A stretch of 8,819 nucleotides of DNA from an uncultured Chloroflexota bacterium (GTDB taxonomy: Bacteria; Chloroflexota; Anaerolineae; Aggregatilineales; Phototrophicaceae), in contig CAIVEA010000511.1 of the NCBI GenBank assembly GCA_903904765.1, positions 1 to 8,819 of the forward strand, written 5' to 3'. Within the stretch, counting starts at the first letter, position 1. Each line of letters starts with the position of its first letter. The position numbers and the translations under genes were made by a program. The notes beneath the pieces were generated by a model that did no database searches, had not been told where the DNA came from, and saw nothing but the letters and a program-made list of their open reading frames with translations. Below, piece after piece: positions 2,982-8,743 of the stretch.

Positions 2982-3536
2982 TTACGAACGAAACCACTCT
3001 GCAATTGTGATAGGCTGCTCACCCATGAGCGTAGATGTGAACGCACCATCCGTTCCGGTTAACCCCTGCCGGACGTAGCGCCCTGCATCTGCATCGAGGA
3101 TGAACACTTCCACAAACTGCGCTTCCGGGTTCACCATCCAGTATTCGCGCACCCCTGCGCGTTCGTAGATGGCGAACTTTGAGCCACGATCATTCATTTC
3201 GGTGGAAGGCGACAGAATTTCCACCACCAGATCGGGCGCACCGTGCCAGTAGCGACCGCTGGCTTCCAGCACACAGCGCGTATTCTGCGGGCTGACCCAA
3301 AACAAATCCGGTTCCAGACTGCTACCCTCGTCCGGGCGCAATCCGGTGGGCGCTAAACGCCAGTGTCCGCTTGGCATCCGTGACCGCAGCATGAAGTAGA
3401 CGTTGCCGAGGATCATCTGATGCGGGTCAACGGGCGGATTCACGACGATTTCTCCGTCAATCAGTTCGGTAATCTGGCTGCTTTCGGGCAGCGCGTCATA
3501 GTCCGCAAGCGTTAATCGCGTTTTGGCGGGTATCAC
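2982..3536 (-). CDS. Uma2 family (DUF820) PD-(D/E)XK nuclease-fold protein, copy 1
   Basis: A protein of the restriction-endonuclease-like Uma2 family, abundant in cyanobacteria and Chloroflexota; in vivo role unknown. The diagnostic blocks are ITELIDGEIVVNPP near the N-terminus, SLEPDLFWV, then GRYWHGAPDLVVEILSPST carrying the acidic D and E of the nuclease core, and DRGSKFAIYERAGVREYWMV with the conserved K and Y. All core residues look intact. Start: a TTG at 3545 lies only one base from the AAGGGGG ribosome site, while GTG at 3536 has a 10-base spacing and still keeps the whole domain (184 residues), so I prefer GTG. The ribosome site overlaps the stop of the upstream membrane-protein gene, implying translational coupling. 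It is a paralogue of the gene at 3883-4428. Confidence 0.88.
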   Translation of the reverse strand: MIPAKTRLTLADYDALPESSQITELIDGEIVVNPPVDPHQMILGNVYFMLRSRMPSGHWRLAPTGLRPDEGSSLEPDLFWVSPQNTRCVLEASGRYWHGAPDLVVEILSPSTEMNDRGSKFAIYERAGVREYWMVNPEAQFVEVFILDADAGRYVRQGLTGTDGAFTSTLMGEQPITIAEWFRS

Positions 3537-3546
3537 CCTGTTCAAG

Positions 3547-3882: not shown

Positions 3883-4428
3883 CTAAAACCAACCGGACAG
3901 ATCAATCGGAGCGTGGTTGAGGGCGCTACTGGCGAAGGACTGCCCCGCTTTGAACACCCCGCTGCGCTCGAAACGCGCCCCATTGTGTGCGTACACTTCC
4001 ACGAACAGCGCCTCCGGGTCAACGATCCAGTATTCGCGCACGCCGATGGCCTGATAGCGGTCAAACTTCACGCCGCGATCTTCATAAGCGGTTGAAGGCG
4101 ACAGCACTTCTATCACCAAATCGGGCGCACCGTGCCAGTAGCGACCATTCGCTTCGAGGAAGCAGGTCGGGCTGTCGTGGCGCACCCAGAACAAATCCGG
4201 CTCGAAGCTATTGGCTTCGTCCAGATGCAATCCGCTGGGCGCGATGCACAACTGCCCCGCCTCCCGGAATGGCAGCAAACTGCCAATGATCGCCAGCAGC
4301 GTTTTCTGGTGGCGAAACAGGGGCGGATTCATCACGATCTCCCCGTCAATCAGCTCGACAATCTGGTTGGTTTCGGGCAAGGCGGTGTACTCGGCAAACG
4401 TCATGCGCGTTCGGACGGTTGTATCCAT
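3883..4428 (-). CDS. Uma2 family (DUF820) PD-(D/E)XK nuclease-fold protein, copy 2
   Basis: 181-residue Uma2 protein with the same block order as copy 1: IVELIDGEIVMNPP (23-36), FEPDLFWV (75-82), GRYWHGAPDLVIEVLSPST (95-113, core D103 and E107) and DRGVKFDRYQAIGVREYWIV (117-136, K121). No catalytic-type residue is missing. Actual nuclease activity is inferred only from the fold. ATG at 4428 is preceded by a strong AAGGAGGGG with 5-7 base spacing; a start at 4467 would place that ribosome site inside the gene and run into the intergenic palindrome. It shares a 27-base identical stretch with copy 1 (4120-4146 and 3231-3257), consistent with a tandem duplication. It follows mqnE by 113 bp and is followed by the membrane-protein gene after 19 bp. 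Confidence 0.9.
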   Translation of the reverse strand: MDTTVRTRMTFAEYTALPETNQIVELIDGEIVMNPPLFRHQKTLLAIIGSLLPFREAGQLCIAPSGLHLDEANSFEPDLFWVRHDSPTCFLEANGRYWHGAPDLVIEVLSPSTAYEDRGVKFDRYQAIGVREYWIVDPEALFVEVYAHNGARFERSGVFKAGQSFASSALNHAPIDLSGWF

Positions 4429-4455
4429 CAGCACCCCTCCTTCCACCTCAAAAAC

Positions 4456-4490
4456 CCTCATCCCCAACCCTTCTCCCTCAGAGAGAAGGG
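4456..4490. repeat. Palindromic intergenic repeat, copy A
   Basis: Leader CCCTCATCCCCAA is followed by CCCTTCTC (4468-4475), a 7-base loop and GAGAAGGG (4483-4490). It lies between the mqnE stop and the Uma2 copy 2 start. The same 8-bp stem with a 7-base loop recurs exactly at 6433-6455, and a longer relative lies at 8762-8811. This is a REP-like dispersed element. It has no T-tract, so it is not a classical terminator, though it could modulate mRNA stability between mqnE and the genes downstream. Confidence 0.75.
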
Positions 4491-4541: not shown

Positions 4542-5630
4542 CTACGCGAACACCTCGATCTCGTTGTACACCGTGTCACGTTCCACCGGCGTGTAACCCG
4601 CCTGCCGGATGAAGTTCATCAGTTCCTTCACGGTCATCGTCTCGCGCTTTGCGCCCGCTTCCTTATAGATGTGTTCTTCGATGATCGTGCCGTCCATGTC
4701 GTTCGCGCCGAAGTTGAGCGCCACCTGTGCCAGCGCCGGGGTGAGCATCACCCAGTAAGCCTTGATGTTAGGGATGTTGTCCAGCATCAGGCGGCTGATC
4801 GCCAGCGTCTTGATGTCATCCACACCCGTCGTCCACTGACGGCCAAGCTTGCGCCCTAGATTGTTTTCTTCGGGATGGAAAGCCAGCCCGATGAAGGTTT
4901 GGAAGCCGCCGGATTTGTCCTGCTGTTCGCGCAGTGCGACCATGTGGTGAACGCGATGTTCCGGTTTCTCGATGTGACCGTAGAGCATGGTGGCGTTGGT
5001 CTTGATGCCTAGCCGATGCGCTGCATCATGAACGGCCAGCCACACTTCTTGATTGGCCTTCTCCGGGCAAATCTTGCGGCGCACGTCCCAGTGGAAGATT
5101 TCCGCGCCGCCACCGGGCATGCTGTCCAGACCCGCTTCCATCAGTTGGCGCAGCACCTCGTGGTGGTTCTGTCCCGTGAGCGTGCTGAAGAAATCAATCT
5201 CCACCGCCGTGAAGGCCTTCAGATGGATGTGCGGGAACTCTCTCTTGAGCGTCCGCAGCAGGTCGAGGTAATAGTCGAAGCCCAGTTCGGGGTGCAGCCC
5301 ACCGACGATGTGGAATTCGCGCACGCCTGCCGCCACCGCCCCGCGCACCTTGTCGGGAATCTGTTCGGGCATGAAGGTGAACGCGCCTTCTTCTTTGTCG
5401 CTGGTGCGGGCGAACGAACAGAAGTTGCAGTGGAAGGCGCACACGTTGGTGGGGTTGATGTGGCGATTCTTGTTGAAGTACACCTTGTCGCCATGCAGCC
5501 GCCGCCGGACAACCTGCGCCAGCTTGCCAATCTTGATGACATCGCGCTGTTCAAACAGCCACACGCCTTCATCGTAGGTCAGGCGTTCGGCGGCCTGCAC
5601 TTTGTCGTTGATCTCGTTCCACGTCGTCAT
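4542..5630 (-). CDS. mqnE: Aminofutalosine synthase MqnE (radical SAM)
   Basis: Radical-SAM enzyme that joins 3-enolpyruvylbenzoate (the MqnA product) to the adenosyl moiety of SAM to give 6-amino-6-deoxyfutalosine. The 362-residue product has the CxxxCxxC cluster motif at C64, C68 and C71 in the typical setting INPTNVCAFHCNFCSFAR. It also has VGGLHPELGFDYY (109-121), MPGGGAEIF (171-179), a TNATMLYGHIE block (211-221) and the C-terminal NFGANDMDGTIIEEHI (306-321). The AFHCNFC and GGLHP motifs distinguish it from MqnC. ATG at 5630 is preferred over an in-frame ATG at 5654: a GGGAGAG purine tract precedes it and the family sequence (MTTWNEINDK) starts there. It is the first gene of the leftward operon, about 85 bases after the predicted transcription start of the promoter at 5721-5749. 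Confidence 0.94.
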   Translation of the reverse strand: MTTWNEINDKVQAAERLTYDEGVWLFEQRDVIKIGKLAQVVRRRLHGDKVYFNKNRHINPTNVCAFHCNFCSFARTSDKEEGAFTFMPEQIPDKVRGAVAAGVREFHIVGGLHPELGFDYYLDLLRTLKREFPHIHLKAFTAVEIDFFSTLTGQNHHEVLRQLMEAGLDSMPGGGAEIFHWDVRRKICPEKANQEVWLAVHDAAHRLGIKTNATMLYGHIEKPEHRVHHMVALREQQDKSGGFQTFIGLAFHPEENNLGRKLGRQWTTGVDDIKTLAISRLMLDNIPNIKAYWVMLTPALAQVALNFGANDMDGTIIEEHIYKEAGAKRETMTVKELMNFIRQAGYTPVERDTVYNEIEVFA

Positions 5631-5720
5631 ACTGGCTCTCTCTCCCTGCGTCATCCCTGTGCTGTTGGGTTTCTTCAGCGAACGTTCAAAAGATTGTGAA
5701 TGTTCTGAATTTCACGAATC

Positions 5721-5932: not shown

Positions 5933-6361
5933 GTGTCTACTCGTCGTGTGTTGATTGGCCTTGTGGCGGTACTCGTCCTCGGTTTCATCGTCCTTCAGCT
6001 TGTTCCCGGGTTCGATATCACCAACCCGCCTGTGACCAACACCATCACATGGGATTCGCCCGAAACTGAACAATTGATGCGGACGGCTTGCTACGACTGC
6101 CATACCAACGAAACCGTGTGGCCGTGGTACAGCTATATTGCGCCGGTCAAGTGGCTGGTGGTGCATGATGTGAACGATGGACGTGAGGCGATGAACCTTT
6201 CGACGGATCGTCGTATGGATGTGCGCGAGATGGTGGAGAAGATTGAGGGCGGCAGCATGCCTCCCAAGATTTACCTGCCCATGCACCCCTCTGCCAACCT
6301 GACCGCCGAACAGAAAGACGCGCTGATCGCTGGCTTGAAGGCCACCGCTGCGGGCGGGTAG
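5933..6361 (+). CDS. Membrane-anchored haem-binding domain protein (mono-haem c-type)
   Basis: 142-residue protein of the haem-binding domain family (Haem_bd type). An N-terminal basic MSTRR and a hydrophobic stretch at about 6-24 give a signal anchor, placing the rest outside the cytoplasmic membrane. The single covalent haem site is C53-Y-D-C56-H57, in the family-typical context CYDCHTNETVWPWYSYIAP. VVHDVNDGREAMNLS (76-90) and GGSMPPKIY (106-114) follow; M109 of the MPP motif is a possible second haem ligand (inferred). The start is GTG, fixed by a perfect AGGAGG seven bases upstream. The gene stands alone on the plus strand and converges on the large di-haem gene. Its partner and reaction are unknown, though an electron-transfer or redox-sensing role is likely. 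Confidence 0.88.
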   Translation: MSTRRVLIGLVAVLVLGFIVLQLVPGFDITNPPVTNTITWDSPETEQLMRTACYDCHTNETVWPWYSYIAPVKWLVVHDVNDGREAMNLSTDRRMDVREMVEKIEGGSMPPKIYLPMHPSANLTAEQKDALIAGLKATAAGG

Positions 6362-6432: not shown

Positions 6433-6455
6433 CCCTTCTCCCTGAGCGAGAAGGG
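6433..6455. repeat. Palindromic intergenic repeat, copy B
   Basis: CCCTTCTC (6433-6440), 7-base loop, GAGAAGGG (6448-6455): exactly the same arms and spacing as copy A, without the CCCTCA leader. It lies between the bidirectional terminator and the stop codon of the minus-strand fusion gene. Confidence 0.75.
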
Positions 6456-6469
6456 GTGAAGTTTCTTGC

Positions 6470-8737
6470 CTACAACAGCGCCTGAATCAGGATGTCGTAC
6501 ACGCGCCACAGGCCGCGCTTGATGGGCGCAGGCCAATCGCGCCCCGGCAGCAGCGGCGGGAACATGCTCGCCCCCGGCTCATCGAACGAGTTGTTCCAAC
6601 CTTCGCCCGTCCACATGATGTCCGCGCCGCCCAAGCCGATGTCCTTCACCAGCCCCTGCGGGTCGTAGCCGTTGTTCTCGAAGGTGTTGCCGTGAATCCA
6701 GTTGTTTTCTGGCAGTGCGCCGAGGTCGAACACGGTATCGCGGCTGTAGAGCGTGTACAGGCTGGTGAGCGCCACCCCGAACGACTGGTTGCCGCGAATG
6801 GTGTTGCCGAACACCTCGGTCTGGTCGGCGGTCATAATCATGATGCCCGTCCCCTGCGGCACTTTCGCCACCGTCGAGTTGGGTGCGCCGAAGTTGATGT
6901 GGTTGTTGTTCTCGATCAGGTTGTTGTACACCCGCGTGTTATAGCCCACTTTGGACGGGTTGTTGGGTAATAAGAACACCAGTATGCCGCCGCTGTTGTC
7001 GTGGGCGTGGTTGTCGTACACCTCGGCATTGGTGCTGTTCTCGATCTCGATTCCGGTCACGTTGTTAAAGACTTCGTTGTTGCGAACGATGATCGGCCCC
7101 CGGCTCTGCCCGACGTAAATGCCCGCGTCCGCAATCCCGCTGACCACGCAGTTCTCGATCAGCACATCCGTTGTTTCCACCGGATACAGGCCGTAGATGC
7201 CCGCATCCTGCACGATCAAATCGCGGTAGACGACATGCTCCGCGCCAGTGGTCAGCACGCCGTTGCCGATGTAGTTGCGGATGCCGAAGCCTTCCAGCGT
7301 GAAATCATCGCCTGTGGTGCTGAAGCCGTCGCTGAGGGTCTTTTCCCCATCCAGCCATGCGCGTTCCTCGCCATTGATGATGCCCTGAATGGTGATTCCG
7401 GCGCGGTCTACATACACCGTCTCGTGGTACACGCCCGGTTCGACTAGCACCGTGTCGCCCGCCAGCGCCTGATCTACTGCCGCCTGAATGGACTCGCCGC
7501 TTCTCACGGTGAAAGTCTGTGGCGCACGCTGGGCGGTGGTGTCCGGCGCGGCGGCGATGGACTGCTGCACCACCTCGCGCAGGGGGTTCTCCAGATGTTC
7601 GACCACCGCCAGCCCGGAAGGGACGCTTTCGGGGATGCGGATCAGGTCGGCGGGTTCGTCGGTCAGCGCCAGCAGGAAGGCGATCAAGTCGCTGGTTTGC
7701 TGCGGGGTGAGCGTGAAGCCGCGAATGAACTCATCCGGTTTCATATCCACACCGAAGGCCGGGCCGCCGCCTTTCGAGTAGAAATCCACCACCTCGTCCA
7801 GCGTTTTGAACACGCCGTTGTGCATATAAGGGGCGGTCAGCGCCACGTTTCGCAGCCCCGGCGTGCGGAAAGCGCGGGTTGAGTCCGGGCCGTTGACCAC
7901 TTCAACCTGCCCCAGATCGGGGCTGTTGGGGTTCACATCCGGCACGCCCAGCGCGTTGAAGGTGTTGTTGGTGAAGGTCGGCCATGAATGGCACTCGAAG
8001 CAGCGGGTTTGGGCGCTGCGGAACACGTTGAAACCGCGTTTCTGCGCCGGCGTGAGGGCGTTGGCATCCCCCGCCGCGAAACGGTCAAAGGGCGAGTTGT
8101 GCGTGAGCAGCGTGCGCTCGAAGGCCGCGATAGAAGTGGACACGTTCGCCAGCGTCAGGCCATCGCTGAAGGCTTCATCGAAGCGCCGCACATATTCCGG
8201 GATGGCGCGTAGCTCCTCCAGCATGGCATCCAGATCAGCGCCCATCTCGTTGGCCGTCGTCAGCGGCACCAGCATTTGCTCCTCCAGCGAGGCGGCACGC
8301 CCATCCCAGAACAGGCTGGTGGCATAGGCTACGTTCCACAATGAGGGCGTGTTGCGCCGCAGCGCCTCGCCATGTGCGCCCTCGGCGGTGGGCAGGCCAT
8401 CGGCAAAGCCCTTGTCGGGATGATGGCAGGACGCGCAGGAACGGTCATTGTCCACCGACAGCACCGGATCGTAGAACAGCAGCCGCCCCAGCGCCGCTTG
8501 CAGTTCATCCGGCGCGGCCACCTGCGGCCAAGCCGCCTGCAACCCGCTGACGGAGGCCGCTTCCTGCCGCGCCCCGCCGCCCTGCTGGTCGAGTGGAATC
8601 GGCGTGTCCTCCGGCACGGGCAGGAAGCAGAACGCCGCCGCCACGCTGCACAGCAGCGCCAGCGGCACGATCAACAGCCAGCGCCACCAGCGGCGGCGCG
8701 GCTTGCCAGCAGAATCCAAAATCGGTTGCCCCATCAT
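6470..8737 (-). CDS. Di-haem MauG/CcpA-type peroxidase fused to a parallel beta-helix domain
   Basis: A 755-residue exported two-domain protein (numbering below counts from an upstream ATG at 8743). A basic RRRWWRW (17-22 region) plus a hydrophobic helix at 23-41 gives a signal peptide or membrane anchor. Residues about 75-362 form a di-haem cytochrome-c-peroxidase/MauG module: haem sites C103-A-S-C106-H107 and C248-F-E-C251-H252, with family blocks RRNTPSLWNVA (129-139), FWDGRAASLEEQ (145-156), FRTPGLRNV (292-300) and TAPYMHNG (303-310). Residues about 408-700 are a right-handed beta-helix. It starts at FTVRSGESIQAAVDQA with GDTVLVEPGVYHE, then Asn-rich turns (GIYVGQSRGPIIVRNN, GIEIENSTNAEVYDN, GTGIMIMTADQTEVFGN), closing with GADIMWTGEGWNNSF. 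These resemble the TIGR03805 family as I know it. SD spacing favours the ATG at 8737 (or 8734). Substrate is unknown. Confidence 0.92.
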   Translation of the reverse strand: MMGQPILDSAGKPRRRWWRWLLIVPLALLCSVAAAFCFLPVPEDTPIPLDQQGGGARQEAASVSGLQAAWPQVAAPDELQAALGRLLFYDPVLSVDNDRSCASCHHPDKGFADGLPTAEGAHGEALRRNTPSLWNVAYATSLFWDGRAASLEEQMLVPLTTANEMGADLDAMLEELRAIPEYVRRFDEAFSDGLTLANVSTSIAAFERTLLTHNSPFDRFAAGDANALTPAQKRGFNVFRSAQTRCFECHSWPTFTNNTFNALGVPDVNPNSPDLGQVEVVNGPDSTRAFRTPGLRNVALTAPYMHNGVFKTLDEVVDFYSKGGGPAFGVDMKPDEFIRGFTLTPQQTSDLIAFLLALTDEPADLIRIPESVPSGLAVVEHLENPLREVVQQSIAAAPDTTAQRAPQTFTVRSGESIQAAVDQALAGDTVLVEPGVYHETVYVDRAGITIQGIINGEERAWLDGEKTLSDGFSTTGDDFTLEGFGIRNYIGNGVLTTGAEHVVYRDLIVQDAGIYGLYPVETTDVLIENCVVSGIADAGIYVGQSRGPIIVRNNEVFNNVTGIEIENSTNAEVYDNHAHDNSGGILVFLLPNNPSKVGYNTRVYNNLIENNNHINFGAPNSTVAKVPQGTGIMIMTADQTEVFGNTIRGNQSFGVALTSLYTLYSRDTVFDLGALPENNWIHGNTFENNGYDPQGLVKDIGLGGADIMWTGEGWNNSFDEPGASMFPPLLPGRDWPAPIKRGLWRVYDILIQALL

Positions 8738-8743
8738 TCCCAT

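Follow-up and report, generated by a model that had tools for sequence, protein, structure and literature searches.

A stretch of 8,819 nucleotides from an uncultured Chloroflexota bacterium (contig CAIVEA010000511.1; the whole stretch is referred to below as the window) encodes a single polypeptide in which an intact di-haem module of the MauG/MbnH type is joined to a right-handed beta-helix of the TIGR03805 family, and the two modules are conserved together. The open reading frame (ORF; positions 6470-8743, minus strand) is uninterrupted over its full length. Its haem half is matched by the Pfam superfamily CCP_MauG (PF03150; 182.9 bits against a gathering cut-off of 25.6, residues 80-225) and carries two CxxCH motifs, and its beta half is matched by NCBIfam TIGR03805 (248.3 bits, cut-off 141.5, residues 417-696). 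The profile of TIGR03806, the SO2930 type of di-haem protein, found nothing in the fusion protein at E <= 0.1, and a haem module of that type is ruled out. The profiles of MauG proper (TIGR03791; 223 bits, cut-off 443.85), MbnH (TIGR04039; 240.5 bits, cut-off 362.85) and NosD (TIGR04247; 50.2 bits, cut-off 300) all score below their cut-offs, and the protein is not placed in any of these three families. An initial annotation, made from the sequence alone, had described one chain without stop or frameshift, with CxxCH sites at the positions given in Table 1, a haem half closer to MauG/CcpA than to SO2930, a TIGR03805-like beta half, and hence a domain arrangement other than that of a TIGR03805/TIGR03806 pair. 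The profile matches agree with this description throughout, and the generic NosD repeat that it allowed for as an alternative is not what the scores indicate. An AlphaFold2 model from an alignment of 104 rows has a mean predicted local distance difference test score (pLDDT) of 92.2 and a predicted template modelling score (pTM) of 0.89 for the whole chain; thus, the two halves are predicted to be packed in a defined way.

Relatives both close and distant carry the fusion. A protein search scored 7992 candidates, with 2941 at E <= 1e-10, and the best 120 of these 2941 are all 737-776 aa long, with both Pfam domains and at least two CxxCH motifs. A scan of species genomes returned 52 loci, 13 of which (L001-L012 and L014, from Chloroflexi or Anaerolineae-type genomes) carry both modules in a single frame; at L013 the start of the contig cuts the gene. 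The protein at L001, from another assembly, is 96% identical over the whole query. TIGR03805 exceeds its cut-off in 30 of 199 genomes sampled from Anaerolineae (the class of G001), and both modules lie in one frame in 25 of the 30, so that the fusion is no rarity, although the initial annotation described the beta-helix as usually a separate exported protein. In one further genome (G188) the contig starts inside the gene and keeps an in-frame fragment of the haem module, and in four (G091, G203, G190 and G112) the beta-helix is alone. Thus, the partnership of the halves is not strictly obligatory. The genomes of the species scan are largely metagenome-assembled, so absences may be gaps, and the beta-only genomes may be incomplete. 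A peptidase M3 gene adjoins three of the beta-only genes, which looks incidental. Partial fusions were also found in Blastocatellia records.

A two-gene form, in which the query matches two adjacent and often close or overlapping ORFs, occurs mostly in Gammaproteobacteria, and also in a Bacteroidetes metagenome-assembled genome and in Kordiimonas. The first encodes a haem protein of roughly 400 aa that has two CxxCH motifs; the second encodes a TIGR03805 protein of roughly 500 aa that has an extra CxxCH near its C-terminus. Haem and beta frames are separate in all of the 28 pair loci chosen for comparison, with families assigned by profile in two of them. Quick maximum-likelihood trees with support from the Shimodaira-Hasegawa-like approximate likelihood ratio test (SH-aLRT) were compared, one from 79 rows of the haem half and one from 86 rows of the beta half. 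In both trees the 28 pairs form one clade (SH-aLRT 100) and the same main fused clades are recovered. A lone haem protein (L018) falls within the fused rows in the haem tree, as do lone beta-helices (L068, L070, L072, L077 and at least six more) in the beta tree. Several deep branches have support below 95, and some branches in the beta tree are long. The trees largely agree, and a single fusion with later losses of either half would be the simplest reading.

The association of TIGR03805 with a c-type di-haem protein, at times within one chain, is an already known kind of arrangement: according to the TIGRFAM description, TIGR03805 and TIGR03806 may be fused, and the pair is not known to have an assigned function. 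In a sample of 143 gammaproteobacterial genomes, TIGR03806 exceeds its cut-off in two and TIGR03805 in seven. Genes of the two families adjoin on the same strand in G229 and G263, and in G242, G329 and G255 both lie in single frames of 1022-1044 aa, with the beta-helix N-terminal and TIGR03806 last. Both profiles match the chains at L097 and L098, where TIGR03805 exceeds its cut-off and TIGR03806 stays below its own, and L099 is fused by frame; the order in all three is opposite to that in the window. No Pfam match to CCP_MauG was seen in the two TIGR03806 proteins scanned. The window protein thus shares its beta-helix family with the TIGR03805/TIGR03806 (SO2930) system, in which a c-type di-haem protein likewise stands beside or is fused to the beta-helix, but its haem half is of the CCP_MauG type, is N-terminal instead of C-terminal, and has signature residues of its own. 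As both kinds of fusion are found, the TIGR03805 family has two types of c-type di-haem module as fusion partners, one N-terminal and the other C-terminal to it. The fusion and adjacent genes, together with TIGR03805 and TIGR03806 as a pair and as a reversed fusion, strengthen the view that both halves serve one process. To this extent the proposal of the initial annotation that the halves act on the same substrate is strengthened, whereas its suggestion of a beta-helix presenting a polysaccharide or protein is without support. At L096 (1699-8369) the TIGR03805/TIGR03806 pair lies beside genes for a TonB receptor and for a pyrroloquinoline quinone (PQQ) alcohol dehydrogenase that includes a cytochrome domain.

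By alignment, the haem module shares with MauG and BthA a tyrosine at the sixth-ligand position of the second haem (Y320) and distal Gln, Pro and Glu (Q154, P158 and E164). The MauG names Trp93, Gln103, Pro107 and Glu113 are those given in the part of PMC6405878 consulted, and their transfer to window residues rests on alignment ends and residue spacing. MauG chain 3l4m is aligned over its residues 5-297 with query residues 75-323, so Y320 would correspond to MauG Tyr294 provided that the alignment has no gap at its end. In the alignment with the Paracoccus peroxidase 2c1u, Y320 stands opposite the Met of KIM, and membership among the canonical peroxidases is rejected. Tyr is found at 320 in all 44 fused, 28 pair and 7 other rows and in 17 of 22 control rows, the remaining five controls having Met; Glu164 is kept in all 39 fused rows with a letter at that position. 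The inter-haem Trp (W144) is common to MauG and the window protein, and is lacking in BthA according to the same part of PMC6405878, in which both MauG and BthA are described as forming bis-Fe(IV). In the entries matched, neither carries a beta-helix fusion. True MauG (TIGR03791) gave no match over its cut-off among 289 genomes.

A second tryptophan, W134, distinguishes the beta-helix-linked modules. As controls meant to be unlinked, 28 rows were taken from 20 MauG-like loci of the class of G011 and from L102-L105, L034, L044, L045 and L049. Trp134 is present in all 38 fused rows that have a residue at this position (6 of the 44 are without this stretch), in all 28 pairs and in 3 of the 28 controls, and two of these three (L113 and L117) turned out to adjoin a TIGR03805 gene. 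Such a neighbour is seen at none of the other loci of L102-L125, and at none of L034, L044, L045 and L049 within the stretches available. The lone haem protein L018, nested in a fused clade, also has Trp134. Residues R240, S241, R245, E248, P253, F319, G325 and the VPSG tail follow the same linked pattern and occur in 3 to 5 of the 28 control rows; S374 and G375 of that tail are kept in 44/44 fused rows, 28/28 pairs and 4/28 controls. These counts, too, are inflated by relatedness of the rows.

On the beta-helix, the strip residues listed in Table 1 are at least 95% conserved among 44 fused, 28 paired and 58 beta-only rows, and all three TIGR03806-linked rows have them. The beta-only rows were defined by a length of 395-430 aa and the lack of two haem-module strings, plus 11 picked by hand, so truncated fusions may be among them. 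None of the strip residues kept in all groups is Cys, His or Met. In a fold search, the nearest solved structures are alginate epimerases, with NosD below the epimerases and lyases; a profile of the beta half found short, weak matches among solved sequences at its start only (PL6 lyase, pectinesterases and the like). The stretch YGLYPVE at 515-521 presumably resembles the epimerase motif, with Asp and His lost. The mannuronan C5-epimerases AlgE4, AlgE6 and AlgG differ from the window protein, which lacks the DPHD motif of alginate epimerases (described in the part of PMC4444821 consulted), and assignment to AlgE/AlgG is rejected.

Genes for c-type cytochromes accompany many of these loci. A c4-like di-haem cytochrome is encoded at 27 of the 28 pair loci (absent from L016), directly upstream where its position is listed, and a c-type cytochrome of one family, with one or two haems, lies near 20 of 36 fused loci and near none of the four beta-only loci. 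Flank lengths vary among loci, and upstream of the fusion's first ATG the window continues for only 76 bases. A TonB receptor (by match to one query) is encoded at 11 of the 28 pair loci and an aldehyde dehydrogenase at five. Upstream of the fusion, 8 of 36 loci (L003, L005, L007, L008, L009, L011, L012 and L014) encode a membrane protein of about 425 aa that matches NorB by profile (4xyd, E 4.4e-16). This protein has no His at the aligned positions of the NorB histidines, which we take to be the haem and FeB ligands, and a two-haem cytochrome c precedes it in seven of the eight loci.

The reading that we favour, tentatively and at somewhat less than even odds, is of an extracytoplasmic oxidase made as one chain and anchored in the membrane: the beta-helix would hold a substrate, the di-haem module would oxidise it and small c-type cytochromes would carry electrons. 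An organic substrate would be bound along the conserved Tyr/Glu/Asn strip, and either peroxide would activate the di-haem module or a partner would withdraw its electrons. The bound substrate could then be oxidised by long-range electron transfer, perhaps via W134, and the small cytochromes encoded nearby in many relatives may carry electrons to or from the fusion protein. In proteobacteria the same machine would be divided over two genes plus the c4-like cytochrome. Consistent with this are the conserved fusion and the adjacency of the halves in 28/28 chosen pair loci; the joining of TIGR03805 to TIGR03806 as a neighbour (L096) and in one chain (L097 and L098); the cytochrome c genes at 27/28 pairs and 20/36 fusions as against 0/4 beta-only loci; the MauG/BthA-like Tyr ligand position and distal residues; the signature W134; the strip, which is invariant with any partner; and the two-domain model (pTM 0.89). 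The TonB receptor (11/28 pairs) and aldehyde dehydrogenase (5/28) would be expected if the substrate is imported and converted to an aldehyde.

A number of observations weigh against such an oxidase. The TonB receptor and aldehyde dehydrogenase are found in a minority of pairs and in none of the 36 fused loci, and the c-type cytochrome is not seen in 16 of the 36, some of which have very short flanks. Two of the four beta-helix-only genomes are without any haem-module match and two have remote matches only. The counterparts of MauG Gln103 and Pro107 are lost in some fused rows (Ala at 154 in seven, Ser at 158 in seven). The surface relay Trp199 of MauG, which we take to lie two residues before the second CxxCH, has no counterpart, the residue there being Thr (T244) in the window and Thr, Leu or Met among the 44 fused rows. 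L106 has Trp134 with no TIGR03805 match in its genome, and the 38/38 and 28/28 counts for W134 are inflated by relatedness, since rows within clades are not independent events. The sequence and locus data also indicate no particular substrate. Apart from these points, the MauG-like protein at L106 (2288-3625) ends in a C-terminal region that by eye is cupredoxin-like, and would be another type of fusion.

A bolder version of the oxidase, which we regard as doubtful, is that the TIGR03805-linked MauG modules form a separate enzyme class, in which a di-haem centre would send oxidising equivalents by a dedicated tryptophan relay (W134) to a substrate or tyrosine-based cofactor in the beta-helix strip. 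This design would have evolved as a pair, as a fusion and, in the opposite order, with a second haem module, and in some Chloroflexota it would be coupled to the NorB-like membrane protein without metal ligands.

A cytochrome c peroxidase, removing H2O2 with electrons from the neighbouring small cytochromes and merely anchored by its beta-helix to the envelope or a polymer, is an unlikely alternative to the substrate-holding oxidase. The protein belongs to the CCP_MauG family, its best sequence matches among solved structures are bacterial peroxidases of the same fold (CcpA, MacA and YhjA), and small cytochromes are encoded alongside. However, the sixth-ligand position is Tyr where those enzymes have an axial Met, the strict Tyr/Asp/Glu/Asn strip in all groups exceeds the needs of an anchor, and the linkage to TIGR03806, which gives no CCP_MauG match, would be unexpected.

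Modification of the beta-helix by the MauG-like module, either in cis or on a neighbouring protein, could yield a protein-derived cofactor or metal site, as with MauG and methylamine dehydrogenase, but we consider this quite improbable. MauG-like di-haem proteins with adjacent partners are known in MbnH/MbnP and SACCP/MopE, with conversion of a partner Trp to kynurenine in the latter (the part of PMC3621798 consulted), and Y515 and Y541 are invariant in the beta-helix. The window protein differs from both systems in that its partner is a beta-helix, not MbnP or MopE, its MbnH score is under the cut-off, and its partner has no Trp confined to linked forms. As none of the aromatic residues is confined to MauG-linked beta-helices when the 44 fused, 28 pair, 58 beta-only and 3 TIGR03806-linked rows are compared, a beta-helix that is itself the modified substrate is disfavoured. 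Y515 and Y541 are kept equally in the beta-only and TIGR03806-linked rows, and W709 is absent in 28/28 pairs. By these row comparisons, modification in cis is weakened.

Handling of a metal by the beta-helix, with the haem module setting its redox state, would recall the copper-annotated NosD of the nitrous oxide reductase system; it is very unlikely, NosD being far under its cut-off and ranking under the epimerases and lyases in fold, and the residues of the strip kept in all groups including no Cys, His or Met. That the fusion is an assembly join or frameshift artefact is practically excluded by the whole-length match in another assembly, the full-length best 120 of 2941 homologues, each with two CxxCH motifs, and the 25 of 30 fused genomes.

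Table 1. Features of the fusion gene in the window (minus strand, residues numbered along the fusion protein).
Feature	Residues	Window positions	Strand	Basis and remarks
Whole fusion protein		6470..8737	-	755 aa from ATG at 8737, 757 aa if the start is 8743; open frame, Pfam and NCBIfam matches to both halves
N-terminal hydrophobic helix, presumed membrane anchor	15-38	8624..8695	-	helix predicted in model, hydrophobic sequence; putative anchor role
Di-haem MauG/MbnH-type module	75-365 (about)	7643..8515	-	
CxxCH 1	101-105	8423..8437	-	37/37 fused rows with letters, 28/28 pairs
Trp134, signature of beta-helix-linked MauG modules	134	8336..8338	-	row comparison
Trp144, counterpart of MauG Trp93 between haems	144	8306..8308	-	W in 28/28 pairs and in 37/38 fused rows with a letter, L in the remaining one
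Gln154, Pro158, Glu164, distal pocket (MauG Gln103, Pro107, Glu113)	154, 158, 164	8246..8278	-	spacing as in MauG
CxxCH 2	246-250	7988..8002	-	44/44 fused rows, 28/28 pairs
Tyr320, sixth-ligand position (MauG Tyr294; Met in peroxidase 2c1u)	320	7778..7780	-	alignment
Linker, starting with the VPSG tail common to unfused proteins	366-407	7517..7642	-	
Right-handed beta-helix	408-720 (about)	6578..7516	-	NCBIfam match, model, fold matches
Conserved strip, presumed substrate site	Y515, D537, Y541, E564, E566, N567	7037..7195	-	row comparison; putative role
C-terminal helix	737-754	6476..6529	-	model

Elsewhere in the window, a Haem_bd (PF14376) protein with one CxxCH is encoded convergently with the fusion (5933-6361, plus strand). 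None of the 36 fused and 28 pair loci encodes a relative of it, and it is therefore excluded from the system. Two Uma2 (PF05685) genes on the minus strand (2982-3545 and 3883-4467) are repeated DNA copies 889 bases apart with about 72% identity, and a near-palindromic intergenic element of 23 bases is present in two copies (4468-4490 and 6433-6455) with 91% identity. The minus strand also encodes two radical SAM proteins of the CofH/MqnC type and a VitK2_biosynth protein (161-1396, 2095-2997 and 4542-5654), which we take to be the futalosine menaquinone set. Small genes resembling DUF4926 and DUF6883 are found at 1503-2083.

A literature search that included few subscription papers found no function in print for TIGR03805, and neither the MauG-type branch, the split proteobacterial operon nor the signature Trp; PMC8756737, in the part consulted, is not about this fusion. 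The fusion unites an enzyme and its presumed substrate platform in one expressible chain, and the residue signatures Y320, W134 and the Y515-N567 strip point to mutants. If the protein is indeed an oxidase that holds its substrate on the beta-helix, a substrate-presenting oxidase would be added to the MauG/MbnH enzymes, the best known of which have partner proteins as their targets.
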